A stretch of DNA of 64,000 bases, taken from NCBI RefSeq assembly GCF_900230285.1, contig NZ_OCNK01000001.1, positions 372,001 through 436,000 of the forward strand, read 5' to 3'. The notes beneath the pieces were generated by a model, which saw only the letters and a list, made by a program, of their open reading frames with translations, searched no databases and was not told the DNA's origin. The DNA is from Blastococcus haudaquaticus. GTDB lineage: Bacteria > Actinomycetota > Actinomycetes > Mycobacteriales > Geodermatophilaceae. Position numbers and translations under genes: made by a program. Positions 3,372 to 26,426 of the stretch are shown here, in pieces (within the stretch, counting starts at the first letter, position 1; every line of letters starts with the position of its first letter).

Positions 3372-4472
3372 TCAGCCGAACCGCGACCCGTGCCGGCGCT
3401 CCACCTCGGCCAGCAGCTGCTTGACCCGTTCGGCGTCCCCGGCCGGGCAGACCATGGTGACGTCGGCCGTGTGCACCACGACGCTGTCCCGCACGCCGAC
3501 CAGGGCGACCAGGTGCTCGGGGTCGTCGCTGAAGACGATGTTCCCGGCCGCGTCGAGGGCGACGACCATCCCGGAGACGGCGTTGCCGGCCTCGTCGGTG
3601 CTGAGGGTGCTGGCCAGCGCCGGCCACGAGCCGACGTCGAGCCAGTCGACGTCGAGGTCGACGACGAGCACGCGCCCGGGCTCGGCCGCGGCCGGCTCGA
3701 GGACGGCGTAGTCGACGCTGATCTTCGGCAGGGTCGGGAAGACCTCGGCCAGGACGGCCTCACGGTCCGGCCCGGACGGCGCGGCCACGATGCGGGCGAG
3801 CCCGTCGGCCGACGCCGGCAGGTGCTCGCCGAGGGCGTCGAGGACGGTCCGGGCCCGCCAGACGAACATGCCGGAGTTCCACAGGTACTGACCCGAGTCG
3901 AGGTACTGCTGCGCCGTCGCGAGGTCCGGCTTCTCCCGGAAGGAGGCGGCCTCGGCCACCCCCGCCACCTCGGTGGCCGGGCCGCGCTGCACGTAGCCGA
4001 AACCGGTCGCCGGCGACGTCGGCGTGATGCCGAGGGTGACCAGCGCGCGCGGCCGGGCGGCCAGGGCGTCGTAGGCGGTCTCGAGGGCGGCCGCGAACCG
4101 CTCGACGGGCCGGATGACGTGGTCGGCGCTGACCACCGCCAGCTCCGCCTCGGGGTCGACGTCGGCGACCAGCGCGGCGGCGAGGCCGACGGCGTTGGCG
4201 GTGTCCCGCGCCACCGGCTCGAGGATCAGCCGGTCGGCCCGCAGCTCGGGCAGCGCGGCGGCGACCTGCTCGCCGTACCGGGCGGCGGTGCACACCCAGA
4301 TCTGCTCGGCCGGCAGCAGCGCCCGGAGCCGGGCGAAGGCCTCGGCCAGGAGGCTGTGCGCGCCGCCGGTCCCGTCGGCGACCACGTCGAGCAGCTGCTT
4401 GGGACGCTCGGCGCGGGACAGCGGCCACAGCCGAGTCCCCGAGCCTCCGGCCATGATCACCGCGTGCCTCAT
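3372..4472 (-). CDS. manC: Mannose-1-phosphate guanylyltransferase
   Basis: It makes GDP-mannose from GTP and mannose-1-phosphate. The 366-residue protein has the nucleotidyltransferase loop [14 protein letters not shown] at residues 7-20, then [34 protein letters not shown] and DWLDVGSW, all standard for this family. It has no C-terminal phosphomannose isomerase extension, so it is monofunctional. The ATG at 4472 lies 1 bp after the wbbL stop, so the two are almost certainly co-translated. The same wbbL-manB pair exists in Mycobacterium tuberculosis (Rv3265c-Rv3264c). It would supply mannose donor for the GT4 enzymes of this cluster. Confidence 0.95.
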
Positions 4473-4473
4473 G

Positions 4474-5397
4474 TCACCCCTTCTTCTGCAGCCGGCGCCC
4501 GCCGGCCGCCCGTCCGGTCCTCTGCAGCGCCGCCACCGTCCACCGCGGTCGGGCTCCGGCTGCCACGCGCCCGCTGATGTAGGCCAGCCCCATCCGGGCG
4601 CCCAGTCCGGCGCGCAGCGCGGCCCGGAGCGGCGCGTACCGCCGGCCGGGGTAGCGGCGGGACAGGTATCGCAGCGCGCTCGTGTGGTGCACCCGCTGCA
4701 TGCGGTGCGGTTCCCGCCGGGTGGAGTGACCGCCCTCGTGCACCACGACGGCCGAGGGCGCGTACACGTGCAGCCAGCCGGCCTGCGACATGCGGTCGGC
4801 CAGGTCGACGTCCTCGAAGTACATGAAGTAGCTCGGGTCGAAGCCGCCCACGGCGTCGAACGCCTCCAGGCGGACCAGGAGGCAGGAGCCCGACAGCCAG
4901 CCGGCGGGGCGCTCCCGCGGCGCCTCGCTCTCCCGCCGGTACCGCGCCGTCCACGGGTTGGCGGGCCAGGCCCAGCCGAGCAGGGCGTGCCCCGCACCGG
5001 TGGACAGCTGCGGCAGGTCGCGGGCGGAGGGGTACAGCTGACCGTCCGGGGTCCGGATGGCCGGGCCCGTCGTCGCCGCGCGCGGCCACCGCTCGGCGAC
5101 CGCGAGCAGCTCGTCGACGGACCCCGCCTCGAACCGGACGTCGGGGTTGGCGACCAGGGCGTAGGTGCCCTCGGCGCCGGCGAGCCCGGCGTTGGCGGCG
5201 GCGCCGTAGCCGATGTTCCCGCCGGTGCGCAGCAGGGTCACGTGCGGGAACCGCTCGGCCGCGGCCTCGGGCACGCCGTCGGTGGAGCCGTTGTCCGCGA
5301 GCACCACCTCGACCGGACGGGTCGTCGCCGTGGCCAGCGACTCCAGGAAGCCGTCGAGGGTCTCCCCCGGCGAGTACGTCACCGCCACCACGCGCAT
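4474..5397 (-). CDS. wbbL: Rhamnosyltransferase WbbL-type (GT2)
   Basis: A GT-A glycosyltransferase predicted to move L-rhamnose from dTDP-rhamnose onto a polyprenyl-diphosphate-GlcNAc acceptor at the inner membrane face. The product is 307 residues. Motifs are VVAVTYSPGETL at the N terminus, LADNGSTDG, NIGYGAAANAG, ALVANPDVRF (metal-binding region), WLSGSCLLVR and MYFEDVDLADR, where the ED pair is the expected catalytic base region. The ATG at 5397 gives MRVVAVTYSP, the typical family start, and GGGAACG lies just upstream. The next gene is manC, as in mycobacteria. Together with rmlA and rmlC it points to a rhamnose-containing wall linker or polymer. Confidence 0.9.
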   Translation of the reverse strand: MRVVAVTYSPGETLDGFLESLATATTRPVEVVLADNGSTDGVPEAAAERFPHVTLLRTGGNIGYGAAANAGLAGAEGTYALVANPDVRFEAGSVDELLAVAERWPRAATTGPAIRTPDGQLYPSARDLPQLSTGAGHALLGWAWPANPWTARYRRESEAPRERPAGWLSGSCLLVRLEAFDAVGGFDPSYFMYFEDVDLADRMSQAGWLHVYAPSAVVVHEGGHSTRREPHRMQRVHHTSALRYLSRRYPGRRYAPLRAALRAGLGARMGLAYISGRVAAGARPRWTVAALQRTGRAAGGRRLQKKG

Positions 5398-5491: not shown

Positions 5492-6646
5492 TCAGCCCGC
5501 GGCGGCGCGCGCGAAGGTCCGCAGGTGGGCCTCCGCCGAGGCCGCCCAGGTGAACTCCGCCGCGCGGGTCACCGCCGCATCCGCCAGCTCCGCCCTCCGG
5601 GCCGGCTCCGTCAGCAGGCGCACCAGTCCGTCGGCCAGGTCTCCCGGCGTCGACTCCACGTACTCGACGGCGTCCCCGCCCACCTCCGGGATCGCCAGGT
5701 GGGGGCTGGTGAGCACCGCCGCACCGCAGGCCATCGCCTCCAGCACGGGCAGGCCGAAGCCCTCGCCCAGGCTGGGATAGGCGACCACCTCGGCGCCGCC
5801 CAGGAGCCCCGCGAGCTGCTCGAGCGGCAGGTACCCGGGGGCCAGCACCTCGAGGTCGTCGGGGACGGCGGCCAGCGCCGGGTCGACCCGGTCGTCCCAG
5901 CCGCGCCCGCCGGCCAGGACCAGCGCCGGCGGATCGTCGACCCGCCGGCAGGCCTGCTGCCAGCCGGCGATGAGCGCCGGCACGTTCTTGCGCGGCTCGA
6001 TCGTCCCCAGGAAGGCCACGTAGCGGCGCGCCGCCAGGCCCAGCGTGGCGCGTGCCTGCTCCCGCTCCTCCGGCGAGGGCAGGTGGAAGCTCACGGGGTC
6101 GACACCGTGGTGGGCGACGTCGACCCGCTCGCGCGTCGCGCCGGCCACCCGCGCCAGCTCGTCCAGGGTCGCCCGGGAGGGCACGACGCACCGGGCCGCC
6201 AGCCGCAGGGAGGCCCGCGTCCACGTGCGGAAGAACGTCCGCTTCACCGGCTGGTGCACCTCGGGCGAGGTGAAGAACGTCGCGTCGTGCAGCGTCGTCA
6301 CCACCGGCAGACCGGCGCGCAGCGGGAACGTGTAGTGCGGGCAGTGCAGCACCTGCGCACCCACGGCGCGGGCCACGCGGGGGAGCCCGACCTGCTCCCA
6401 GGCCAGCCGGGCGGGACGGCTCTCGATCGCCGGCGGAGCCGCCACCACGTCGGCCGAGGGCAGCAGCGTCCCGTACAGCTCGAGGTCGCGGGCCTGGCAG
6501 ACCACGGCCAGCGACGCGCCCACCTCCTGCAACGCAGGCAGCAACTGGTCCACGTAGCGGCCGACGCCCCCGCGGTCGGCCGGGACGGCGGTGGCGTCGA
6601 CGAGGACGCGCGTGCGGGCTCCGGCCCCCATGACCCCGCCCCCCAT
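5492..6646 (-). CDS. GT4-family glycosyltransferase
   Basis: A retaining GT-B glycosyltransferase of about 384 residues. The N-terminal half contains DRGGVGRYVDQLLPAL (acceptor-side loop) and TLHDATFF. The C-terminal half has FLGTIEPRKN and the GT4 nucleotide-sugar site GEGFGLPVLEAMACG with the EX7E spacing. I chose the ATG at 6646 because GGGAGG precedes it by 6 nt. A second in-frame ATG at 6631 would remove five residues. It lies 94 bp upstream of wbbL and 74 bp after the previous GT4. Donor and acceptor are unknown; with manC nearby a mannosyltransferase is plausible. Confidence 0.88.
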   Translation of the reverse strand: MGGGVMGAGARTRVLVDATAVPADRGGVGRYVDQLLPALQEVGASLAVVCQARDLELYGTLLPSADVVAAPPAIESRPARLAWEQVGLPRVARAVGAQVLHCPHYTFPLRAGLPVVTTLHDATFFTSPEVHQPVKRTFFRTWTRASLRLAARCVVPSRATLDELARVAGATRERVDVAHHGVDPVSFHLPSPEEREQARATLGLAARRYVAFLGTIEPRKNVPALIAGWQQACRRVDDPPALVLAGGRGWDDRVDPALAAVPDDLEVLAPGYLPLEQLAGLLGGAEVVAYPSLGEGFGLPVLEAMACGAAVLTSPHLAIPEVGGDAVEYVESTPGDLADGLVRLLTEPARRAELADAAVTRAAEFTWAASAEAHLRTFARAAAG

Positions 6647-6720: not shown

Positions 6721-7818
6721 TCAGAGCCGGCCGTACAGCTCCCACATCCGCCGGGCGGTCGTGTCCCAGGAGAAGTCGGCCGCCCGTGCCGTGCCTCGGG
6801 CCGCGAGCGAGCTCCGCAGGCCGGCGTCGTCGACCACGCGGTGGATGGCCTCGGCCAGGGCACCCACCTCACCGACGGGAGTGAGCAGCGTCGCGCCGCC
6901 CCCGACCTCGGCCAGCGCGGGGTCGTCGGAGGAGACGACCGCCGTGCCGGCGGTCATCGCCTCGAGCACGGGGAGGCCGAAACCCTCGGCCCGGCTCGGC
7001 GCCACCAGGGCGGTCGCCCTCCGCAGGACCACCGCCAGGTCGGCGTCGGCGAGCCGGCCCAGGCTGCGCACGCGACCGGGCGGCAGCCCGGCCCGGGCGG
7101 CCAGCGCGTCCGGGGCGACGCCGCCCCACCCCGGCTGGCCGACGAGGAGCAGCGGCACGTCCGGGCCCGCGGGGTGGGCCAGTGCCTCGATCAGGACGTC
7201 GAGGCCCTTCCGGGGTTCCAGGGTCGCCAGGCTCAGCAGGAAGGGTTCCTCGGGCAGACCCAGGCGACGGGCGCGCTCCGCCGCGTCGTCCGGCTCGGCG
7301 AGACGACCGCTGGCCCCGAGGTGGGCCACCTCGATCGGCGCCCTCGGCTGCAGGTAGCGGGCCAGGTCGTCGGCGACCGCGTGGGTCGGGACGACGATCG
7401 CGTCCGCGTGCCGGGCCGCACGCTCGGCCATCGCCCGATGCCACCGCACGCCCCGCGCGGTGAGGGTCTCCGGATGCGTCCACGGCACCGCGTCGTGCAC
7501 GGTGACCACCAGCGCCCCCCGGCGGACGGGCGGGAGCAGCAGGGTCGGCGCGTGCACCACGTCGGCACCCGTCGGCCGCGGGCCGACCCCCCGCTCCCAG
7601 GCGGCCACGAGCGCGCGGCGCGGCAGCGGGAGCCGACGAGGCCCCGACACCCCCGGCAGCCGGGCGGCGGCGGTCCGGCGGTGCCAGGCCGTCCACCCGG
7701 TGACCGCCGCCCCATCCGGGGCCGTGGTGGCGAGGGCCCCGGCCAGCTCGGTCGAGTACCGGCCCGTCCCCGCGGGAACGGGCGCGAGCACCTGCTCCAG
7801 CAGGACCGCTACGCGCAC
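6721..7818 (-). CDS. GT4-family glycosyltransferase
   Basis: A 365-residue GT-B enzyme with the same architecture as its neighbour: PAGTGRYSTELAGAL near the N terminus, VTVHDAVPWTHPE, SLATLEPRKGLDVLIEAL, and the donor site AEGFGLPVLEAMTAG. It starts with GTG at 7818, giving MRVAVLLEQVLAP. The start lies 7 bp downstream of the WbdD-like gene stop, so the two are probably translated in sequence. The close resemblance to the enzymes at 5.5 and 14.6 kb suggests duplication within the cluster, with each copy making a different linkage of one polymer. Confidence 0.87.
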   Translation of the reverse strand: MRVAVLLEQVLAPVPAGTGRYSTELAGALATTAPDGAAVTGWTAWHRRTAAARLPGVSGPRRLPLPRRALVAAWERGVGPRPTGADVVHAPTLLLPPVRRGALVVTVHDAVPWTHPETLTARGVRWHRAMAERAARHADAIVVPTHAVADDLARYLQPRAPIEVAHLGASGRLAEPDDAAERARRLGLPEEPFLLSLATLEPRKGLDVLIEALAHPAGPDVPLLLVGQPGWGGVAPDALAARAGLPPGRVRSLGRLADADLAVVLRRATALVAPSRAEGFGLPVLEAMTAGTAVVSSDDPALAEVGGGATLLTPVGEVGALAEAIHRVVDDAGLRSSLAARGTARAADFSWDTTARRMWELYGRL

Positions 7819-7825
7819 GTCCCCG

Positions 7826-9289
7826 TCACTGCGCCAGCTCGGTGGCCCGGCGGATGCCGCCGGCCACCTGGTCGTAGAGCTCGTGGAAGCGCGGGTCGAG
7901 CGCCTCCCGCGGCGGGAGCTGGGACTTGCCCTGCTCGGTGGGCTCGCGGGTGCCGGTGGTCAGCGCGTGGACGAGCCAGAGCACCGACACGAGGTCGCCG
8001 TCGAAGTCCGTCGACGACGTGTCGGCGTAGTCGATCAACCGCGCCGTGGTGCCGTCCCAGAGGATGTTCCACGAGCGCACGTCGTTGTGGAACAGGCCCT
8101 CGCCGTGCAGCTCGCGCAGCGCCGCGAGGATCTCGCCGACGATGGCGTCGATCTGCTCCGCGGGCAGCGGCGCACCGGTCTCGAGCAGGTCGCCCGCGAC
8201 ACGGCCGTAGACCACGGTGGCGACGTCCCCGGAGACCTCGTAGTCGATCAGCCGCGGGGCCCGCGAGAGGTGCTGGATGCCGATCAGCGCGGAGATCTCG
8301 TGCGTGATGAGACGGGCGTTGGCCGAGGTCCGCTCCGCCAGCCGGTACTGCTTGATGAAGACGCCGTCGCCCCACATGTAGCGGCGGCTCTCGTGGTCCA
8401 CCACCGCGGCCGAGCCCGGGTATGCCTCCGCCCTGCTGCTCGTGACCGCGTACTCGCGGTCGTTGACCGAGACACGCTCCTTCCGGCTGACCACGTACAG
8501 CGGACGCGCCTTGTCGGACAGGTGCGTCCCGAACATGCCCAGCTGCACGATCTCCACCTCGTCGCGCACCAGCGCGAAGATGTCGAGCTCGTCCTCGGGA
8601 AGGCTGGCGTCCCAGAACAGGTCGGGGTCCTCGCCCTTGCGGGCCAGCTCCAGCACGAGCACGGGCACCCGCTGCAGCAGGTCGCGCATCAGCACCTGCG
8701 TCTGCTCGAGGCCCTGGTGGTAGACGACGTGGTGCAGGACGCTGAGCAACGTCACGACGTCGAACTGCCCGGGGCCGATCGTGGCCACGCTGTCGGCGTC
8801 GAACAGCTGGGTGCGGATGCGGCTCGGGACGCCGTTCAGCTCACCGATCAGCTGCGCGACCTCGGCGTTCGCCGGGTTGCCCTCCCAGCCCTCGGTGACC
8901 ATGCCCCGGTCGGCGAACCAGTAGCAGACGAAGCCCAGGGAGGAGCCCACGTCCAGGAGGCGCTTGCCGCGCACCCGGCCGCCGAAGTGGTTCTCGATCG
9001 CCCGGCACCGGTCCACGCTGTCGCGGGCCGGCTCGGCGATCACGCCGGGCAGGCCGTAGGCGGGCTGGTAGGGCTCGACCTGGGCGGCGAGCGACCGCAG
9101 CTTCTGCAGGCGGAAGTCGAACTGCTGGAAGTGGTTGACCCGCAGGTCGACCTGGCGCACCAGCTCGCTCAGCCCGGACAGGTCCTCGTCGATCCGGTCG
9201 AGCCGGTCAGGGAGCCCCTGGAGGTTCTGGACGCCATCGATCGCTTCCGGCGCCAGCCGGGCGATCGCCGCTCGAAGCTGCTTGCGCAT
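7826..9289 (-). CDS. WbdD-like methyltransferase-kinase fusion, candidate polysaccharide chain terminator
   Basis: The 487-residue protein joins three parts. Residues about 20-75 form a predicted amphipathic helix or coiled coil (heptads around DRIDEDLSGLSELVRQVDLR). Residues about 105-265 are a class I SAM methyltransferase: motif I LLDVGSSLGF at 111-120, acidic loop EGWEGNP, and FDVVTLLSVLHHV. Residues about 300-480 are a small protein-kinase-like fold: FIKQY with K313, E331, the catalytic loop HNDVRSWNIL (H401, D403, N408) and LIDYAD (D420). In E. coli O9a, WbdD phosphorylates and methylates the end of polymannose and so stops growth before ABC export. Here the gene sits among GT4s beside wzm/wzt with a cargo domain, which supports the same role. 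ATG at 9289 is preceded by AAAGGGA. The function is inferred. Confidence 0.7.
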   Translation of the reverse strand: MRKQLRAAIARLAPEAIDGVQNLQGLPDRLDRIDEDLSGLSELVRQVDLRVNHFQQFDFRLQKLRSLAAQVEPYQPAYGLPGVIAEPARDSVDRCRAIENHFGGRVRGKRLLDVGSSLGFVCYWFADRGMVTEGWEGNPANAEVAQLIGELNGVPSRIRTQLFDADSVATIGPGQFDVVTLLSVLHHVVYHQGLEQTQVLMRDLLQRVPVLVLELARKGEDPDLFWDASLPEDELDIFALVRDEVEIVQLGMFGTHLSDKARPLYVVSRKERVSVNDREYAVTSSRAEAYPGSAAVVDHESRRYMWGDGVFIKQYRLAERTSANARLITHEISALIGIQHLSRAPRLIDYEVSGDVATVVYGRVAGDLLETGAPLPAEQIDAIVGEILAALRELHGEGLFHNDVRSWNILWDGTTARLIDYADTSSTDFDGDLVSVLWLVHALTTGTREPTEQGKSQLPPREALDPRFHELYDQVAGGIRRATELAQ

Positions 9290-9367
9290 GCGTGTGGTCC
9301 CTTTCGCTGCTGTGCGCGTGTTCGGAGTGGGGCGCCGTTCGCGGCGCACCCCGTGGGGGGCTGGGCC

Positions 9368-10825
9368 TCAGGCCGTCGAGCCGCGGTCGGAGGAAGGGTC
9401 CGCCGGCGCCGGCGCGCCGGCCCCGTTCCCGCCGGTGCCGGGCCGGACCGCGCCTTCCACGGCGGCCAGGCGCTGCTCGAGCGTGTCGAGGCTGGCCACC
9501 ACCGCCTGCTGCAGCAGCAGTTCGTGGTGGACGACCGGGTCGACCTCCCACGAGATCAGCCGACGGACGGCGCGCTTGAGCTGGGACACGCCGGGCCGCA
9601 GCGAGGTCGCGGGCGGGCGGGAGAAGGGCGGCAGCCGCCGCACCGGCAGGGTCGCCGTACCGGGCGTCGGCGCGGTCTCGCGGGCGACCGCGGCGCCCGG
9701 CGTCGCGCCGGCGAACGCCACCTCGCCGCCACGCACCAGCCGGGCCCGCTCGCGCACCTGCGACTGCACGGCGGTGAACAGGTCGTCGCCGTCGAGGTTC
9801 CAGGCGCGTTCCTCGGCAGCCGAGTCGTCCACGCCGAGCACCTGCCGCATGGCGGCCGCCAGGCCGGCGTCGTCGTCGACCAGCGTCACGAGCCGGTCAC
9901 CGGCCTGCTCGGCCAGGCCGCCCACCCGGGTCGCGATGACCGGCCGCTCGTAGAGCGCCGCGCGCTCCATCACACCGGAGGACCAGATGTGCCGGTAGGG
10001 CAGGACGACGGCGTCGGACGCGACGATCCACCGGTCGAAGAGCTCGTCGGAGATGTAGCCGGCGTGCAGGGACGCCCCCGGCGTCGCGGCGCACAACCTG
10101 TCCAGCTCGTTGAGGTAGGCGACGAAGTCCGGCTCGTCCAGGCGGGTGGACCCGACGATGTCGAGTCGGGCCCCGTGGGCGGCGAGCCCGGAGAAGGCGT
10201 GCACCGCGCGGTCGAAGCCCTTGTGCTCCTGGATGAAGCCGATGCACAGGAAGACCGTGCTGTCGGGGTCGATGCCCAGCGAGGCGCGGGCCTCCTCCCG
10301 GGTGGCCGCGGACCGGCGGACGAAGGCCTCGCCGTGCTGGGCGAGGTGGGCCATGGCCGGATCGACGGGCACCACCTCGAGGAAGCGGTCGCGCTCGGTC
10401 TCGCTGTGGAAGAACAGCGCCGTCGCGCTGCGGAAGAGGAGGCGGCTGGCCTGGGCGCGCACCCCGCCGCCGCGGGCGTCCTCGTACTCGAACTCGTGGA
10501 CCCACACCTCGACCTGGGGGGCGATCTTGAACGCCACGGCCAGCGCCGCGTCCACCGCCGCCCGGTGCGTGGGGTCGCTGGAGCGGTAGAAGAACGCCGG
10601 GTGCCACTGCAGGACGATCTTGTCGTAGGCCCGGACGCGACGGGCGAGGGCAGCCCCGAAGCGGGGGCCGGCCTGGAAGTCGAGGTGGTGGTGGGCGGCG
10701 GAGGGCTCCGGCGACAGCACCTCCACCTGGTGCCCCTGGCGCTCGAGGTGGGCCACGGCCTGGGCCGCGTACGTCGCGATCCCGTCCCGCTTCGGCGGGT
10801 AGGGCGACACCATCAGGATGCGCAT
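9368..10825 (-). CDS. GT4 glycosyltransferase with C-terminal helical tail
   Basis: A 485-residue protein. The first 330 residues are a GT-B enzyme: MRILMVSPYPPKRDGIATYA, LQWHPAFFY, VWVHEFEYED, FIGFIQEHKG-type core (CIGFIQEHKGFDRAV) and SSGVMERAALYERPVIAT. The donor-site motif is diverged from the classical EX7E form. After a Pro/Ala-rich linker (about 385-425) comes a helix near residues 435-465 (EVDPVVHHELLLQQAVVASL) predicted to coil. Similar tails occur in polysaccharide GTs and methyltransferases and may dock onto the coiled part of the neighbouring WbdD-like protein. The ATG overlaps the preceding stop as TGATG, so translation is coupled. Confidence 0.85.
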   Translation of the reverse strand: MRILMVSPYPPKRDGIATYAAQAVAHLERQGHQVEVLSPEPSAAHHHLDFQAGPRFGAALARRVRAYDKIVLQWHPAFFYRSSDPTHRAAVDAALAVAFKIAPQVEVWVHEFEYEDARGGGVRAQASRLLFRSATALFFHSETERDRFLEVVPVDPAMAHLAQHGEAFVRRSAATREEARASLGIDPDSTVFLCIGFIQEHKGFDRAVHAFSGLAAHGARLDIVGSTRLDEPDFVAYLNELDRLCAATPGASLHAGYISDELFDRWIVASDAVVLPYRHIWSSGVMERAALYERPVIATRVGGLAEQAGDRLVTLVDDDAGLAAAMRQVLGVDDSAAEERAWNLDGDDLFTAVQSQVRERARLVRGGEVAFAGATPGAAVARETAPTPGTATLPVRRLPPFSRPPATSLRPGVSQLKRAVRRLISWEVDPVVHHELLLQQAVVASLDTLEQRLAAVEGAVRPGTGGNGAGAPAPADPSSDRGSTA

Positions 10826-12141
10826 CAGCCGGCCACCTCGACAGCCGGGGCGGCGGTCGCCGCAGCGGCGGGAGCCGGCGCGGTCGTCCACGAGGTCAGG
10901 GACTGCTCGACCCGGGTCAGCACGTCCTCCCACTGGTAGTGGTCGAGCACGTAGCGGCGACCCGAGGCGCCCAGCCGCTCGGCCGCCTCGGGGTGCGCGG
11001 CGAGGAACACCAGGGCCTCCTCGAACTCGTACCGGTCGTCGTAGACGATGCCGGCCCGGCTCCGCTCGATGTGGTACCGGACGACGCCGCCCTGCCCGAC
11101 GCCGACGACGGGGGTCTCGGCGAGCCAGGACTCCATGATCGTCCGGGAGAACGCCTCGTACCGGCTCGGCTGGACGTAGGCCGTGGCCGCCGCGTAGGCG
11201 TCGTTGCGGTCCTCCTCGGAGAGGAAGCCGAGGTCGTGCACCCGGTCGGCCACCGACGCCGGCGGGTTGACGTCACCGGCGCCCATCGTCACCAGGTGGA
11301 AGGGCAGCCCCCGGGCCACGACCGAGCGCGCGAACATCTCGAGCAGCTCGTCCCAGCCCTTGGCCCCTTCGCGGCGGCCCGCGTAGAGCAGGAACGGCTC
11401 GGTGATCCCGAACTTCTGACGGAATCGCTCGGGGTCGTAGCCCTCGGGCACCTCGACGCCGCAGCCGACGACGTCGTGCGGGGCCAGCTGCGGGAAGATC
11501 GAGTGCGCCAGCTCGTGCTCGGGCTCGGTCTGCAGGAACAGGCCGGCGACGCCGCTCAGGACCGGCGCGAAGATGCTCTGGTAGGCGTAGGGCTCGTCGT
11601 GCAGGCAGGTCCAGAGCACGGAACGGGTCGGGTGCACCTGGCTGCAGGCCACCGAGGGCCAGAAGAGGTAGGGCCCGAAGACGATGGCCCGGTACTCCTC
11701 GCCGCGGGTGAGCAGGTGCTGGTAGAGCCCGGGGATGCGCACGTCGTCGTTGAGCCAGCGCTCCTGCTCGACCAGCGGGATCTGCTCGCCGCCGAACATG
11801 CGCATGCCGATCTCGTCGCGGTCCCGCCCGGCGGTGGACTTGACCGCCTCGAAGCGACGGACGGTGAGCCCGTCCTCCACCGCGACACCGACCGGCAGCT
11901 CGTTCTTCCAGGTGAAGTAGTCCAGCGCCGCCGTGGTCAGGACCTCGACCTCCCAGCCCCGGTCCTGCAGACCCATCGCCAGGTGGCGGAGCACGATCTC
12001 CGCGCCGCCGATGATGTCGGGCCCGAATCGAGCCGGGACGAAGGCGATCTTGCCCGTCCGGTCCACAGGGGGCTGCACGTCGGATGCACTCCTCGCAGTC
12101 GTGTCGGGCCCGGTGTTCCCCGGGTCCCTGGAATCGGTCAT
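10825..12141 (-). CDS. GT4-family glycosyltransferase
   Basis: A GT-B glycosyltransferase of up to 438 residues. Recognisable parts are ARFGPDIIGGAEIVLRHLAM at the N-terminal domain, LHDEPYAY, FLLYAGRREGAKGWDELLEM, and the donor site PSRYEAFSRTIMESWLAETP. The ATG at 12141 is used, but no ribosome site precedes it. A GTG at 12078 has GAGGAG 10 nt upstream and would remove a low-complexity 21-residue leader, so the start is uncertain. The gene begins 10 bp after wzt and is probably part of the wzm-wzt operon. It belongs to a different GT4 subgroup from the three shorter enzymes nearby. Donor sugar unknown. Confidence 0.86.
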   Translation of the reverse strand: MTDSRDPGNTGPDTTARSASDVQPPVDRTGKIAFVPARFGPDIIGGAEIVLRHLAMGLQDRGWEVEVLTTAALDYFTWKNELPVGVAVEDGLTVRRFEAVKSTAGRDRDEIGMRMFGGEQIPLVEQERWLNDDVRIPGLYQHLLTRGEEYRAIVFGPYLFWPSVACSQVHPTRSVLWTCLHDEPYAYQSIFAPVLSGVAGLFLQTEPEHELAHSIFPQLAPHDVVGCGVEVPEGYDPERFRQKFGITEPFLLYAGRREGAKGWDELLEMFARSVVARGLPFHLVTMGAGDVNPPASVADRVHDLGFLSEEDRNDAYAAATAYVQPSRYEAFSRTIMESWLAETPVVGVGQGGVVRYHIERSRAGIVYDDRYEFEEALVFLAAHPEAAERLGASGRRYVLDHYQWEDVLTRVEQSLTSWTTAPAPAAAATAAPAVEVAG

Positions 12142-12151
12142 CGGGGGCCGG

Positions 12152-13402
12152 TCATCGGGTCTCGGCAGTCGCGGCGCGGGCCGCCCCGGCCTCGACCGGG
12201 CGCACCTGCACCTGGGCCGGCATCCGCACCAGCCCGTCCTGCCACTCGGAATCGACGATCTTGAAGTTCTTGATCCGCGCGGCCCGGGCGTAGTGCGGTC
12301 CGTTGACGCCGTGCGCGGCCAGGCTGACGTGGTAGCCGCCGTCGATCAACGGGATCGATCCGTAGCTGAAGGAGACCCGCCGGGAACCCTCGATCGGCTC
12401 GAGCTGCAGGTTCATCAGGTGCGTGTTGGACGCGTAGCAGTTCTGGTCCATGTGGTTCTCGATCTTGATGCCCACGGCCCAGTCGGTCACCCGCCGGTCG
12501 GAGGTGACGGTGCACTCCACCCCGAACGGTTCGCCCGGGCTGAAGGTGTCCTTCGGCTGCCCGGCGCCGTCGGTGATGACCACGTCGGAGATCCGCATCG
12601 GGGTGTAGGTCGCCGCACCGGTCACCGTGTCGTCCGCGCGGGCGGCGGCCTGCTCGGCCTCCACCTCGGCCTCCTCGTTCCACGCGTCCCGGATCATGCG
12701 GATCGCCTGCGTGGGGGCGCCGTCGTACTGCATGACGCCGTGGTCGAGCAGGACGGCTCGCGAGCAGAGGTCGCGCACGAGGTCGAGGGCGTGGGTGACG
12801 AAGATGATCGTGCGCCCCTCGCGCATGAACGACCGGATCTTGTCCAGGCACTTGCGCTGGAACGCCTCGTCGCCGACCGCGAGGACCTCGTCGATCAGCA
12901 GGATCTCGGGGTCGACGTGCACCGCGACGGAGAAGGCCAGCCGCACGTACATGCCGGACGAGTAGAACTTGACCTGGGTGTCGAGGAACTCCTCGATCCC
13001 GGAGAAGTCCACGATGCTGTCGAAGTACTTGTCCGTGTCGGCCCGGGACAGGCCCAGGATGGACGCGTTCAGGTAGACGTTCTCGCGACCGGTCAGGTCA
13101 CCGTGGAAGCCGGCCCCGAGCTCCAGGAGGGCCGCGAGCCGGCCGCGCCGCTCCACGTACCCGTCGGTCGGGCTCAGGATGCCCCCGATGACCTTGAGCA
13201 GGGTCGACTTGCCGGACCCGTTGTGGCCGATCAGGCCCATCGACGTCCCGGCCGCGATCTCCAGGTCGATGTCGCGCAACGCCCAGAACTCGGACTTGTT
13301 CTGCTTGGTCGTGCGCGCGTTGATCAGCCGCTCCTTGAGCGACTTGTTGGCGTTGATGGCGAACTTCTTGCTGACATCCGAGACGCGGATGACGGTGGTC
13401 AT
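12152..13402 (-). CDS. wzt: Polysaccharide ABC exporter ATPase with C-terminal cargo-binding domain
   Basis: The ATP-binding subunit of an ABC-2 polysaccharide exporter, 416 residues. Walker A is GHNGSGKST at 59-67, the signature is YSSGMYVRLAFS at 147-158, Walker B is ILLIDEVLAVGD at 167-178, and the switch His is H204. Residues about 265-400 form an extra beta-rich domain (TFSPGEPFGVECTV, GGYHVSLAAHGVNG) that matches the Wzt carbohydrate-binding C domain of O8/O9a systems, which reads the capped non-reducing end. Mycobacterial galactan exporters lack this part. The start ATG is 3 bp after the wzm stop. The combination with a WbdD-like gene implies cap-dependent export. Confidence 0.92.
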   Translation of the reverse strand: MTTVIRVSDVSKKFAINANKSLKERLINARTTKQNKSEFWALRDIDLEIAAGTSMGLIGHNGSGKSTLLKVIGGILSPTDGYVERRGRLAALLELGAGFHGDLTGRENVYLNASILGLSRADTDKYFDSIVDFSGIEEFLDTQVKFYSSGMYVRLAFSVAVHVDPEILLIDEVLAVGDEAFQRKCLDKIRSFMREGRTIIFVTHALDLVRDLCSRAVLLDHGVMQYDGAPTQAIRMIRDAWNEEAEVEAEQAAARADDTVTGAATYTPMRISDVVITDGAGQPKDTFSPGEPFGVECTVTSDRRVTDWAVGIKIENHMDQNCYASNTHLMNLQLEPIEGSRRVSFSYGSIPLIDGGYHVSLAAHGVNGPHYARAARIKNFKIVDSEWQDGLVRMPAQVQVRPVEAGAARAATAETR

Positions 13403-13405
13403 GGG

Positions 13406-14386
13406 TCAGAGCTCCTGGGCGAAGTCGCCCTGTGCGCGGGCGAAGTAGCGTTGCGCCAGCCAGAGGGCCCCGAGGCCGATCACCAGGAACACTCCGAGGC
13501 GGGCCCACAGGTTGGCGTCGAGCGTGTACTCCGGCCCCATCGTGTAGAAGGCCCGCTGGAATGCCGCGATGACGTTGAGCATCGGGTTGGCGAGGTAGAT
13601 CTCGAGCAGCAGGCTGTGCCCGTTCTCGGTGAAGTTCTTGATGGGCAGCACGACCGGGTAGACGATCGGCACGAGCCAGAACAGCAGCAGCGTCACGATC
13701 TCGATGAGGTGCTGCAGGTCGCGGAAGTAGACCGTCGCGGCGGCCAGGAAGAGCCCCATCGCCAGGCCCCACACCAGGCAGACCGCCAGGGCGAGCGGCA
13801 CCAGGGCCAGGTCGCTGGTGACGGCGACCCGGTTGTCGGTGAGGACGGCGGTGATCCCGATCGCGCCGATGAGCACGATCATCTGCAGGAAGAAGTTCAC
13901 CAGCGCCGCGCCGACGACCGAGAGCGGGAAGATCTCGCGGGGGAAGTACGTCTTCTTCAGCAGCCCGCCGTTGCCGACGATGGAGCCGGTGCAGCCGCCG
14001 AGGATGTCGGTGAACAACCCCCAGACCACCAGGCCCGAGAAGATGAAGACGGCGTAGGCCGGCTGCTGGTTGCCCAGGAAGATCGTGAACGCCAGGTAGT
14101 AGATGACCAGCTGGGCCATCGGCCGGACCAGGGTCCAGAAGAAGCCGAGGACGCTGTCCTTGTACTTGACCTTCAGTTCCTTGCGGACCAGCTGCCCGAG
14201 GAGCTCGCGGTAGCGCAGGATGTCGACCAGGTCGGTGAAGGACCCCCGGAAGAAGCTCCGCGGCGGGTTGACCCGTTCCATGGGGAGGGACTCGACCGCC
14301 TCCGCCCGGTTGATCGCCGGCGGTTCGCGGAACGCATCGGTCGCATCGCCGCCGGTACCCCGCACGTCGGTGCCCGTACTTGACAT
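13406..14386 (-). CDS. wzm: Polysaccharide ABC exporter permease
   Basis: The membrane subunit of the exporter, 326 residues, ABC-2 family. About 55 cytoplasmic residues are followed by an amphipathic stretch (RELLGQLVRKELKVKYKDSV) typical of Wzm/TagG, then roughly six hydrophobic segments (for example LVIYYLAFTIFLG, FSGLVVWGLFTDIL, FFLQMIVLIGAIGITAVL, LALAVCLVWGLAMGLFLAA, LIEIVTLLLFWLVPIVYPV and LGVFLVIGLGALWL). It would form a homodimer with two Wzt subunits and move lipid-linked glycan across the plasma membrane. It heads the minus-strand cluster and faces a divergent GT4, so its promoter lies in 14387-14569. Confidence 0.94.
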   Translation of the reverse strand: MSSTGTDVRGTGGDATDAFREPPAINRAEAVESLPMERVNPPRSFFRGSFTDLVDILRYRELLGQLVRKELKVKYKDSVLGFFWTLVRPMAQLVIYYLAFTIFLGNQQPAYAVFIFSGLVVWGLFTDILGGCTGSIVGNGGLLKKTYFPREIFPLSVVGAALVNFFLQMIVLIGAIGITAVLTDNRVAVTSDLALVPLALAVCLVWGLAMGLFLAAATVYFRDLQHLIEIVTLLLFWLVPIVYPVVLPIKNFTENGHSLLLEIYLANPMLNVIAAFQRAFYTMGPEYTLDANLWARLGVFLVIGLGALWLAQRYFARAQGDFAQEL

Positions 14387-14569
14387 GGTCGTTCCATCCT
14401 CATCGCTGACGTCGCTTCAGGGTAGGCGAGCCGCGCTGCACGCATGCTCCCGAGCGAAGGACCGACCAGTGGCCGGTTCGACCTCGGGCACCCGCTCGCC
14501 CCACACCCGGACACGTTCCTCGCGCACCCGCCGGGTCGTCCGGCGACTACCTCTATCGTCGGCCCCGTC

Positions 14570-15667
14570 ATGGACGTACTCCTCGACGGCACCCCAATGC
14601 TCGGGCACCGGACCGGGATCGGACAGTACGTGACGAACCTGTACCGAACACTGCACGACCGGCCGGATGTGACCCCACGGCTATACGCCTTCACCATCCG
14701 CCACGGGAGTCGCCCCCCGGACGTGCATCCCGGTGCGTGGACCCGCCGGATCCTGCCCGCCCGGCTGCTGCAGCAGCTCTGGCTGACGCAGGACCGGCCG
14801 AGCGCCGACGTCCTCCTCCCCCGGGCCGACGTCCTGCACGCGACGAACTTCACCTCGCCCCCGAGCCGCCGGGCGCGTCGCGTCGTCACGGTGCACGACC
14901 TGGCGTTCCTCCGGCTGCCGGAGACCGTCCACCCCCAGACCCGCCGGGCCGCCGAGCTGACGATCCGCCAGGCCCGCCGGGCGGACGCCGTCCTCACGCC
15001 CAGCGCGGCGGTCGCCGCGGAGATCCAGGAGCACCTCGGCATCGCCGGCGACCGGGTCCACGTCACGCCGCTCGGCGTGGACGACGCCTGGGCGGCGGCC
15101 GCGCCGCTGGCAGCGGCGGAGCGCCGCCGTCTCGGCCTGCCCGACCGCTACCTCCTGGCCGTGGGCACCCGCGAACCGCGGAAGAATCTCGGCGCCCTGG
15201 TCGCCGCGCACCGCGCTGCCGGCACCGGGCGGGTCCCACCGCTCGTCCTCGTCGGCCCGGCCGGATGGGGGCCGGAGATCACCGCCGATCCCGGCGTGCA
15301 CGTGCTCCCCTACCTCCCCGCCGAGGAGCTGCGCGGCCTGGTGGCGGGCGCCACCGCGCTGGTCTTCCCGTCCCGCTACGAGGGCTTCGGCCTGCCCGCG
15401 CTGGAGGCGATGGCCACCGGCACCCCCGTCCTCGCGAACGACATCCCGGTGCTGCGCGAGGTGCTCGGCGAGTGCGGGACGTTCGTGGACGCCGACGACC
15501 GGGACGCGCTCGTCGCCGCCCTGGAGGCGGTCGGATCGGGCCGGCTCGAGGACGGCGACGCCGAGTCCGCCCGTGCGGCCCGGCGGGAGCGGGCCCGCTC
15601 GTTCACCTGGGCCCGCTGCGCGGACGCCACCGTCGCCGCCTACCGCGCCGCCGGCGCCCCGGACTGA
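14570..15667 (+). CDS. GT4-family glycosyltransferase
   Basis: A 365-residue GT-B enzyme starting MDVLLDGTPMLGHRTGIGQY. It shows VVTVHDLAFLRLPE, LAVGTREPRKN, VPYL-like linker, and donor site YEGFGLPALEAMATGTP. ATG at 14570 is preferred over upstream in-frame starts because the protein then aligns with the family N terminus. TATCGT at 14554-14559 could be a -10 box giving a leader of only a few bases. It is transcribed divergently from wzm but is clearly part of the same polysaccharide locus, and it is most like the enzymes at 5.5 and 6.7 kb. Confidence 0.87.
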   Translation: MDVLLDGTPMLGHRTGIGQYVTNLYRTLHDRPDVTPRLYAFTIRHGSRPPDVHPGAWTRRILPARLLQQLWLTQDRPSADVLLPRADVLHATNFTSPPSRRARRVVTVHDLAFLRLPETVHPQTRRAAELTIRQARRADAVLTPSAAVAAEIQEHLGIAGDRVHVTPLGVDDAWAAAAPLAAAERRRLGLPDRYLLAVGTREPRKNLGALVAAHRAAGTGRVPPLVLVGPAGWGPEITADPGVHVLPYLPAEELRGLVAGATALVFPSRYEGFGLPALEAMATGTPVLANDIPVLREVLGECGTFVDADDRDALVAALEAVGSGRLEDGDAESARAARRERARSFTWARCADATVAAYRAAGAPD

Positions 15668-24447: not shown

Positions 24448-24737
24448 GCCCGCGAGGCTAGCAACGCCCCGGCCCGGCCTGCCTGCGGAGCGGTGGTGAG
24501 CCGGTTCCGCCCCGGGCGATGTCACGGACCGGTCCCGCTGGGGCGGCTGGGTCCGATGTGAATACCCGTGCCCCAGGGGAGTTCCGTGGCGTCCGGCAGC
24601 GGGTGTCGGAAGGTCCCGGGGCGACGTCAGCATGCTTACCATCGGATCCAGCCGATCGGCCCAGCTCCATCGCGGCCGGCGAACGACACGGTCGGGCCAG
24701 ACCGATCCGATCCCAGTCCCCGAACGTGAGGAAGCCG
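24448..24737. other. Divergent promoter region between GT-C and LCP genes
   Basis: A 290-bp gap. TACCAT near 24640 fits a -10 hexamer for the LCP gene and would give a leader of about 90 nt. GAGGAAG just before 24738 is the likely ribosome site. No small gene was recognised. Confidence 0.4.
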
Positions 24738-26426
24738 GTGAGCCGACAGCGCGACCCGCAGGTGATGCCGGCCGGTGGCCCGGCACTCCCGCCGCGCCTG
24801 GACCCCCGCGCCGGCCGTCCGCCGCGCCCCAGGACCACGCGTCGCGGCGGCGAAGAGCTCCGGCGACCGGCAGCTGCCGGCGGGGCACGCCGTGGCGGAC
24901 GCGACGCGGCCACCACGCACGACCACCACGCCCGCGGCTTCGGTCAGACCCTCGGCCTGACCGTCCTGAACACGATCCTCCCCGGCACCGCCTTCCTGGC
25001 GGCCGGCTACAAGAGGACCGGCGCCCTCCTGCTCGCCGCGTTCGTCGCACTCGTCGCCATGGGCGCCTATCTCGCGACGGCCGGCCAGGAGCTCGCCGTG
25101 CGGCTGGCGGTCAGCCCCACCGGGCTGCTCCTGATCATCGCCGCGGTCGTGGGCCTCGCCATCGTGTGGTCCCTCACCGTCATCGCCGGCTACCGGGTCC
25201 TGGCCCCTGACTCCACGACCGGCGGCCAGCACGTCCTCGGCAGCGTGCTCGTCACCCTGCTGGCACTGGGCGTCGCGGCGCCGGCGTTCGAGGCCGCGCA
25301 CCTCGCGTCGGTCCAGCGCAACCTCATCACCGGCCTCTTCGGCGACGACGTGGAGTCCGCGACCGTCCCCGAGGCCAAGGCCGACCCGTGGGCCGACAAG
25401 GAGCGGGTCAACATCCTCCTGCTCGGCGGTGACGGCGGCGACGGCCGGACCGGCGTCCGCACGGACACGGTGATCGTCGCGAGCATCGACACGCAGACCG
25501 GCGCCACGACGACGTTCAGCCTGCCGCGCAACCTCGAGGAGCTGCCGTTCCCCGAGGACAGCCCGCTGCACGACGTCTACCCGGACGGGTTCGACGCGGG
25601 CAGCGAGAGCGAGAGCCTCCTCAACGCCGTCTACCGGAACGGCCCGGCCGCGCACCCGGACATCCTCGGCCCGACGGACAACCCCGGGGCGGACTTCCTC
25701 AAGCTGGGTGTCGGCGAGGCGCTGGGCCTGACGCTCGACTACTACGTCCTGGTCAACCTCGACGGTTTCAGCCAGCTGATCGACGCGCTCGGCGGCATCA
25801 CGGTGAACGTCAACTACTTCGTGCCGGTCGGTGGCGACCCGGGAACCGGCTCGCTGCCCGACGACTACATCGCGCCCGGACCGAACCAGCACATGGACGG
25901 CACGCGCGCTCTGCAGTACGCCCGCGGCCGGTTCGGTCTCTCGGACTACCAGCGGATGGACCGTCAGCGCTGCATGATCAACGCGATCGTCGGAGCCGCG
26001 GACCCCATGACCATGCTGAGCCGCTACCAGCAGATCGCGGCGACGACCCAGGACATCGTGAGCACCGACATCCCCCAGGCCGTCGTCGGTGACTTCGCGG
26101 ACCTGGCGCTGAAGGTGAAGGACGCCGGCATGCAGAGCGTCGTCTTCGACGACTCCGTCATCCGGCCCGCGTACCCCGACTTCGACCTGATCCGGTCGAC
26201 GGTCCAGGACGCCCTCGCCGCGACCCCGTCGCCCACGCCGACCCCTGCGGAGCCCGCCCCGGCGGGCGGGGCGACGACCGGGACCGGCGGCGCGCCGGCT
26301 CCGGCACCCACGGAGCCTGCTCCGGCCTCGGAGTCCCCGGTGACCAACGCCGCCGACGCCTGCGCCTACGACCCGGTGGCGGCCAGCGAGGCCCTCGAGG
26401 AGGGCGAGCCGCCCACCCGCCGCTGA
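24738..26426 (+). CDS. LytR-CpsA-Psr family glycopolymer attachment protein
   Basis: LCP enzymes move lipid-linked glycopolymers onto peptidoglycan outside the membrane. The product is about 562 residues: a Pro/Arg-rich cytoplasmic segment, three or four membrane helices (TVLNTILPGTAFLAAGY, LLLAAFVALVAMGAYLA, LLLIIAAVVGLAIVWSLTVI, VLGSVLVTLLALGVAAPAF), then the LCP domain with NILLLGGDGGDGRTGVRTDT, FSLPRNLEE, GITVNVNY and LQYARGRFGLSDYQRMDRQR, and a Pro/Thr/Ala-rich tail. The GTG at 24738 is preceded by GAGGAAG; a GTG at 24726 is possible. Its position next to TIGR03089 matches Rv3267-Rv3268 in M. tuberculosis. It is the natural candidate to anchor the glycan made by the upstream cluster. Confidence 0.92.
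   Translation: MSRQRDPQVMPAGGPALPPRLDPRAGRPPRPRTTRRGGEELRRPAAAGGARRGGRDAATTHDHHARGFGQTLGLTVLNTILPGTAFLAAGYKRTGALLLAAFVALVAMGAYLATAGQELAVRLAVSPTGLLLIIAAVVGLAIVWSLTVIAGYRVLAPDSTTGGQHVLGSVLVTLLALGVAAPAFEAAHLASVQRNLITGLFGDDVESATVPEAKADPWADKERVNILLLGGDGGDGRTGVRTDTVIVASIDTQTGATTTFSLPRNLEELPFPEDSPLHDVYPDGFDAGSESESLLNAVYRNGPAAHPDILGPTDNPGADFLKLGVGEALGLTLDYYVLVNLDGFSQLIDALGGITVNVNYFVPVGGDPGTGSLPDDYIAPGPNQHMDGTRALQYARGRFGLSDYQRMDRQRCMINAIVGAADPMTMLSRYQQIAATTQDIVSTDIPQAVVGDFADLALKVKDAGMQSVVFDDSVIRPAYPDFDLIRSTVQDALAATPSPTPTPAEPAPAGGATTGTGGAPAPAPTEPAPASESPVTNAADACAYDPVAASEALEEGEPPTRR

Follow-up and report, generated by a model that had tools for sequence, protein, structure and literature searches.

Our analysis of a 64,000-nucleotide stretch of the Blastococcus haudaquaticus genome (contig NZ_OCNK01000001.1, positions 372,001 to 436,000; the window) revealed that the minus-strand gene at 7826–9289 encodes a fused methyltransferase-kinase which, as judged by alignment, is a homologue of WbdD of Escherichia coli O9a. 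The reading that we favour, with a probability of about 0.72, is that this enzyme ends a mannose-containing chain with a methyl-phosphate cap and that the ATPase Wzt, encoded in the same cluster, reads the cap before export. In the cytoplasm, the glycosyltransferases of the cluster would assemble a glycan that contains mannose and is carried on a lipid; the kinase half would phosphorylate the non-reducing terminal sugar (on the 3-OH, by analogy) and the methyltransferase half would esterify the terminal phosphate, whereupon elongation would stop. An N-terminal coiled coil may keep the enzyme assembled and determine the length of the chain, a role played in WbdD by the C-terminal coil; the cargo domain of Wzt would bind the cap and license passage through Wzm, after which the chain may be attached to peptidoglycan by an LCP enzyme. 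The cap chemistry, the substrate, chain-length control, export gating and wall linkage are the parts of this scheme that we infer.

Pfam and phmmer were run on a 507-aa reading of the gene, which extends the 487-aa form by 20 residues at its N-terminus. In this reading, Methyltransf_11 was matched at residues 132–211 (25.4 bits, cut-off 21.2) and the second half was kinase-like (APH, 31.2 bits, cut-off 23.2; Pkinase, 29.6 bits, slightly below its cut-off of 31.7), while one colinear WbdD match covered both the methyltransferase and the kinase (residues 82–450, equivalent to 62–430 of the 487-aa form). Among PDB sequences, residues 16–392 of the WbdD crystal structure 4azw were aligned to the window protein by phmmer (E 1.9e-32); the top four matches were all WbdD (E 1.9e-32 to 4.8e-32) and the next molecule was a eukaryotic kinase (E 0.0021). 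Identity to WbdD of E. coli HS was 29% across 421 aligned residues. The closest homologue, 95% identical, was found in an uncultured Blastococcus (L011), followed by proteins of a Modestobacter (L012, 68%) and of a Cellulomonas metagenome-assembled genome (L013, 42%), and three actinobacterial proteins were 28–31% identical to three enterobacterial WbdDs. The preliminary description of this DNA, made from the letters alone, had seen at 7826–9289 a fusion of a helix-like segment, an S-adenosylmethionine (SAM) methyltransferase and a kinase-like domain, and Pfam, the heptad pattern reported below and the WbdD match all uphold this layout; H401, D403, N408 and D420 lie where they had been placed (487-aa form) and align with H349, D351, N356 and D369 of WbdD. 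Recent transfer from enterobacteria was also considered and is unsupported, given the 28–31% identity and a third-codon GC of 0.96 that matches the neighbouring genes.

Mutants of WbdD at Y16, H132, H133 and R203 phosphorylate without methyl transfer, Y230 and D351 mutants are inactive, and N356 and D369 are Mg ligands (PMC3482155). In the window protein, Y74, H186, H187 and R262 correspond to Y16, H132, H133 and R203 of the methyltransferase, and Y290, D403, N408 and D420 to Y230, D351, N356 and D369 of the kinase; all eight are kept in the four actinobacterial proteins, the window's included, as is the equivalent of W355. The O8 enzyme, whose methyl acceptor is a hydroxyl, lacks counterparts of R203, H132 and H133, and these three are credited with phosphate use (PMC3482155); the presence of their equivalents therefore argues for phosphate methylation by the window enzyme. 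It is very improbable that the kinase half is inactive and that termination proceeds by sugar O-methylation only, as with the O8 enzyme of E. coli or the methyltransferase domain of Geobacillus WsaE: such an enzyme would fit the changes at D350 and at E274, which binds Mg in WbdD, but the window protein and all three homologues, down to 42% identity, retain the equivalents of Y230, D351, W355, N356 and D369, and likewise those of R203, H132 and H133. On the same conservation of active-site residues, a decayed kinase or a chance fusion was rejected.

The exporter Wzt had been predicted to carry a C-terminal domain at about residues 265–400, and a Wzt_C domain was indeed detected there, well above its cut-off (Table 1). 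The match of Wzt residues 5–365 to the Aquifex aeolicus WzmWzt structure 8dku (E 1.6e-70) starts in the ATPase and continues into the cargo domain; taken by itself, the cargo domain matched that of Aquifex weakly (best E 0.0037). In the Aquifex protein, contacts to the 3-O-methyl cap include N313 and H350, and L300 lies in the methyl pocket (PMC9445017). With residues paired on the assumption of chain position minus one, Aquifex N313, H350, A348 and T346 align with N326, H364, A362 and S360 of the window Wzt; Aquifex W362 and the trap loop fall past the end of the alignment. The methyl-pocket L300 corresponds to K313, and lysine is also found in L012 (the two WbdD-type clusters with a Wzt available). 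A lysine at this position could suit a charged cap such as phosphate, which is only a lead, given that E. coli O9, with its methyl-phosphate cap, has leucine there. The enzyme had been described as lying next to Wzm/Wzt; it does belong to the same cluster, three genes from wzt rather than adjacent to it. Among the four loci with a WbdD-type enzyme, three had wzm or wzt nearby (adjacent to it in L012 and L013), and the L011 contig stops short of the expected position.

A natural exchange of the cap enzyme provided a further comparison. Of 112 Geodermatophilaceae genomes, 45 had Wzt_C (39 above cut-off) and 3 had the WbdD-type enzyme (E <= 1e-15); 30 Wzt_C stretches were taken for comparison, of which L077 duplicates L012. 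Identities to the window of the glycosyltransferases GTa, GTb, GTc and GTd and of an acyltransferase were 53, 69, 65, 66 and 69% in L012 and 57, 68, 76, 71 and 77% in the locus L063. The WbdD-type enzyme is common to L012 and the window; the L063 genome is without a match, and in its cluster a 399-aa methyltransferase is encoded on the opposite strand, two genes away from wzt. The cargo domain was 86% identical to that of the window in L012 and 39% in L063, and the Wzt ATPase domain 91% and 76%, respectively. The cargo domain thus appears to differ together with the cap enzyme in L063, a single case that supports recognition of the cap by Wzt. Across loci, 496 Wzt pairs were compared, 463 of them at an ATPase identity of at least 40%, of which 234 with a class-less locus were excluded; cap classes were best-hit labels, and MTa, MTb and MTc are possibly not separate families. 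At an ATPase identity of 70–80%, the cargo domains of same-class pairs were 45–47% identical (2 pairs) and those of different-class pairs 22–39% (53 pairs, mean 29%), and at 80–90% the values were 45–84% (19 pairs) and 23% (1 pair). At 60–70% there were 15 different-class pairs and no same-class pair, and at 40–60% the classes were not separated (4 same, 123 different pairs). We regard these statistics as supportive, not as proof, the pairs being non-independent and the classes tracking lineage.

A methyltransferase gene lay within four genes of wzt in 20 of the 30 non-window loci (the L067 match being a fragment); of the remaining loci, L078 gave a weak match (E 2e-4), L049 had the gene six away and eight had none, some contigs being cut. 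The queries of this survey, which had no control, came from seven of these 20 loci and from the window enzyme.

The N-terminal segment was assessed with a heptad-pattern script with shuffled controls, which scores the pattern only and involves no helix predictor. In residues 21–48, all 8 of the a/d positions are hydrophobic compared with 1 of 20 elsewhere, which none of 500 shuffles matched; with the same script, shuffles as good numbered 5 of 500 for residues 460–620 of E. coli HS WbdD, 2 for the Modestobacter N-terminus, 4 for the Cellulomonas N-terminus and 5 for the C-terminus of GTa. By this pattern, the preliminary description was right to put the helical part at the opposite end from that of WbdD. 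Counted from the predicted starts to the common EPY motif, there are 98 residues in the Modestobacter protein and 74 in that of the window. Terminators of such pathways are described as bearing a coiled coil that serves as a ruler of chain length (PMC11231755), and by analogy the N-terminal coil may measure chain length here.

Several observations weigh against termination and cap-dependent export as proposed. Cap type does not by itself fix cargo-domain identity: at an ATPase identity of at least 90% the classes overlap (same, 63–92%, 9 pairs; different, 67–71%, 3 pairs), the Wzts of the window and of E. coli O9, which go with the same enzyme class, share only 18% cargo-domain identity, and the methyltransferase of L072 is of the same type as those of L066 and L069, yet its cargo domain is 20–21% identical to theirs. 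Between L012 and L063, identities to the window shift likewise in wzm (80 vs 73%), GTe (63 vs 48%) and the ATPase domain, and the 20 kb of L063 examined yielded no manC, GT2 or rmlA. Within the enzyme, the position of WbdD D350 is asparagine and the sulphate-pocket residues C33, N34, Q35 and D195 differ; a WbdD triple mutant including N34 and Q35 had a methyl transfer of <10% (PMC3482155). The protein stops shortly past the kinase, with no long C-terminal coil or polymerase-recruiting region, and the C-terminal bundle helix, deletion of which lowers WbdD kinase activity (PMC3482155), is not evident. In WbdD, R270 and E274 are attributed to recognition of the second sugar, and E274 to Mg binding as well (PMC3482155); they are A/D and L/Q in the actinobacterial proteins, and are kept in all three enterobacterial WbdDs aligned, a set in which two share 91% identity. 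An amphipathic membrane helix at the N-terminus was unsupported, the hydrophobic moment of the window protein being equalled by 824 of 2000 shuffles.

Since R270 and E274 are replaced, the acceptor probably differs from that of WbdD, and we read the alignment as WbdD chemistry that is probably unchanged but acts on a different chain end. The loss of these second-sugar residues would also fit an enzyme that decorates internal or side-chain sugars with phosphate and methyl, neither terminating the chain nor licensing export; the kinase-methyltransferase family of Lani_1194, common in Micromonosporales, is tied to decoration of secreted factors (PMC9758233), and the FkbM-type methyltransferases near wzt in other loci could be decorators. 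We consider such a role unlikely, as the fused architecture and the catalytic residues are the same as in the proven terminator WbdD, a cargo-domain exporter is encoded three genes away and another cargo domain is found where the enzyme is replaced. Capping by the window enzyme with recognition by Wzt, as first suggested in the preliminary description, is strengthened by the homology, the catalytic residues and the one cargo-domain contrast; the actual cap, the dependence of export on it and the wall linkage are predicted parts of this reading.

The cluster reads, on the minus strand, wzm, wzt, GTb, GTa, methyltransferase-kinase, GTc, GTd, GT2 and manC, with rmlC (2–577) and rmlA (659–1528) on the opposite strand past manC (Table 1); gene neighbourhoods came from a codon-usage gene caller, and starts are approximate. 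The claim that manC and several GT4 genes share an operon with the enzyme stands as to the genes, the close same-strand spacing pointing to a putative operon; GTe lies on the opposite strand. A phosphomannomutase/phosphoglucomutase gene was found about 6 kb outside the window edge and, together with ManC, supports a supply of GDP-mannose. The GT2 gene was considered as WbbL, the linker rhamnosyltransferase, from mycobacterial gene order; this is not claimed, the NCBIfam matches being far below their cut-offs.

Table 1. Features of the window. E values of GTc, GTd and GTe against WbdB and WbdA come from a small search limited to the window's own genes.
Feature	Coordinates	Strand	Basis
Methyltransferase-kinase, WbdD-type, proposed chain terminator, 487 aa	7826..9289	-	phmmer, catalytic residues, Pfam
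SAM methyltransferase part, residues ~62-269	8483..9106	-	alignment to WbdD, Pfam, phmmer
Kinase part, residues ~270-460	7910..8482	-	alignment to WbdD, Pfam, phmmer
Coiled-coil-like segment, residues 21-48 (best-scoring 28; by eye perhaps to ~72)	9146..9229	-	heptad score
Wzt ATPase with C-terminal cargo domain	12152..13402	-	Pfam PF00005 and PF14524 above cut-off; 8dku match
Wzt_C carbohydrate-binding domain, residues 270-394	12221..12595	-	61.7 bits, cut-off 30.4
Wzm permease (start possibly 14365)	13406..14386	-	ABC2_membrane, 49.5 bits
GT4-type glycosyltransferase GTb	10825..12141	-	Pfam
GT4-type glycosyltransferase GTa	9368..10825	-	Pfam, gene calling
GT4-type glycosyltransferase GTc	6721..7818	-	similar to WbdB (E 1e-29) and WbdA (E 9e-22)
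GT4-type glycosyltransferase GTd	5492..6646	-	similar to WbdB (E 4e-33) and WbdA (E 2e-20)
GT4-type glycosyltransferase GTe, window gene closest to WbdB	14444..15667	+	E 5.9e-38
GT2 glycosyltransferase	4474..5397	-	Glycos_transf_2, 55.5 bits
ManC, mannose-1-phosphate guanylyltransferase	3372..4472	-	Pfam
LCP-family glycopolymer transferase, candidate wall-attachment enzyme	24519..26426	+	TIGR00350, 68.9 bits (cut-off 62.3); PF03816, 75.9 bits (cut-off 24.6)

Linkage of the glycan to the wall via the LCP enzyme is plausible from gene content. The LCP gene and wzm are separated by about 10 kb, and five LCP matches occur in the genome, a loose pairing that leaves some room for a system working as proposed up to the last step, at which the glycan would be free, lipid-linked or protein-linked; terminated, ABC-exported glycans of Geobacillus, for instance, go to S-layer protein (PMC2943079). 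This outcome, which overlaps with the capping and export that we favour, is possible, though we would not expect it, the LCP gene and two LGFP-repeat genes being found on the side of wzm, no more than about 12 kb away. The LGFP-repeat genes (17708–20227 and 20287–22749), between the cluster and the LCP gene, encode SpoIID-like and amidase-like proteins with eight LGFP repeats each, and relatives of the amidase-like protein were also found near other extended-wzt loci.

The WbdD-type enzyme was sparsely distributed. Within the genus, 8 of 16 genomes gave a match at E <= 0.001 and only 2 of them a whole-length match. In the class search, the alignment query and the protein query each returned a single genome of 394, that of the window itself. 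In the phylum search, the alignment query matched 4 of 396 genomes, 3 of them only over model positions 68–264 (the methyltransferase part), and the protein query matched 2 of 396, the second spanning residues 70–270 only; with two (alignment query) or four (protein query) candidates scored per genome, the class and phylum counts are lower bounds. Among viral contigs, 67 stretches fitted a pattern and none was confirmed as a relative. In the Cellulomonas locus L013, two GDP_Man_Dehyd-family genes (7901–9856) adjoin the WbdD-type enzyme, and a deoxysugar derived from GDP-mannose, such as rhamnose, may be part of the glycan there.

Other extended-wzt loci yielded observations in their own right. 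A Methyltransf_24-like gene, a candidate alternative cap enzyme, adjoins wzt in L052, L053, L055, L060 and L064 (Pfam on two), and an FkbM-type methyltransferase, which may serve in capping or in decoration, lies four genes from wzt in L068, L070, L071, L073, L075 and L067 (Pfam on L071; a fragment in L067). A 1135-aa fusion of a GT2 and a WsaF-like glycosyltransferase, reminiscent of Geobacillus S-layer glycan enzymes, adjoins wzt in L049 (6364–9771). L063 has a second ABC exporter pair (18359–19989), the 256-aa ATPase frame of which is without a cargo domain in the sequence examined, and in L067 (9793–11003) Wzt is split across two overlapping frames, a possible frameshift or sequencing error.

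To our knowledge, chain termination coupled to export has been worked out mainly in Gram-negative O antigens, and the present cluster would possibly extend chain-end tagging and tag-reading export to a surface-glycan pathway of Gram-positives. A WbdD homologue with its coil at the opposite end offers a naturally occurring way to ask which portion of the protein acts as the gauge of chain length, and clusters alike in glycosyltransferases and unlike in cap enzyme and cargo domain are matched pairs for studying cap reading in the actinobacterial envelope. More tentatively, and with some doubt, we suggest that in Geodermatophilaceae a shared glycosyltransferase core and exchangeable cap-enzyme/cargo modules set the length and identity of a peptidoglycan-linked glycan, and that the WbdD with an N-terminal ruler represents a second topology; the cap modules would then be WbdD-type methyl-phosphate in a few members and various methyltransferases in others.

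The preliminary description had held that a cap-and-recognise system acting on a wall-linked actinobacterial glycan was, as far as known, undescribed. This statement of novelty needs correction, since terminal caps with ABC export are known from S-layer glycans of Firmicutes; our literature searches, mostly on titles and abstract openings, surfaced no account of a WbdD homologue in an actinobacterium. No paper on wall glycans naming the Geodermatophilaceae was among the literature matches listed. In Geobacillus, a 2-O-methyl cap is added by WsaE with proposed recognition by Wzt (PMC2943079), in Clostridioides difficile an S-layer glycan exported by an ABC transporter ends in a cyclic-phosphate rhamnose (PMC6254364), and comparable systems serve O-linked glycans in Gram-positives (PMC3482155).

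Like Geobacillus WsaE/Wzt and C. difficile SLCT-11, the window system would be that of a Gram-positive with an ABC-exported glycan modified at its non-reducing end. It is unlike them in that WsaE is described as a methyltransferase fused to glycosyltransferases, the SLCT-11 cap is assigned as a cyclic phosphate, and both glycans go to S-layer protein. A methyltransferase combined with a kinase is shared, as far as their published descriptions, the only basis of this comparison, allow, with K. pneumoniae O7 ORF6 (PMC11231755) and with Legionella Lcin_0519 and Lani_1194 (PMC9758233). O7 ORF6 and Lcin_0519 are also tied to coiled coils and ABC glycan export, and both are called distinct from WbdD (PMC11231755, PMC9758233), whereas the window protein matches WbdD itself. 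Relatives of Lani_1194 are most numerous in Micromonosporales, so kinase-methyltransferase fusions as such have already been reported in actinobacteria (PMC9758233).

With Aquifex WzmWzt (8dku), the window Wzt shares the match from ATPase to cargo domain and the two cap-sugar contacts kept as N326 and H364, and it differs in having K313 in place of the methyl-pocket leucine. Compared with WbdD of E. coli O9/O9a (K. pneumoniae O3), the window enzyme has its coil-like segment at the N-terminus, is without the long C-terminal part, is changed at R270, E274, D350 and part of the sulphate pocket, and belongs to an actinobacterial host with another set of glycosyltransferases. Notwithstanding these differences, it has in common with WbdD a methyltransferase followed by a kinase in one chain, the eight catalytic residues, and a place near Wzm and an extended Wzt in a cluster with manC.

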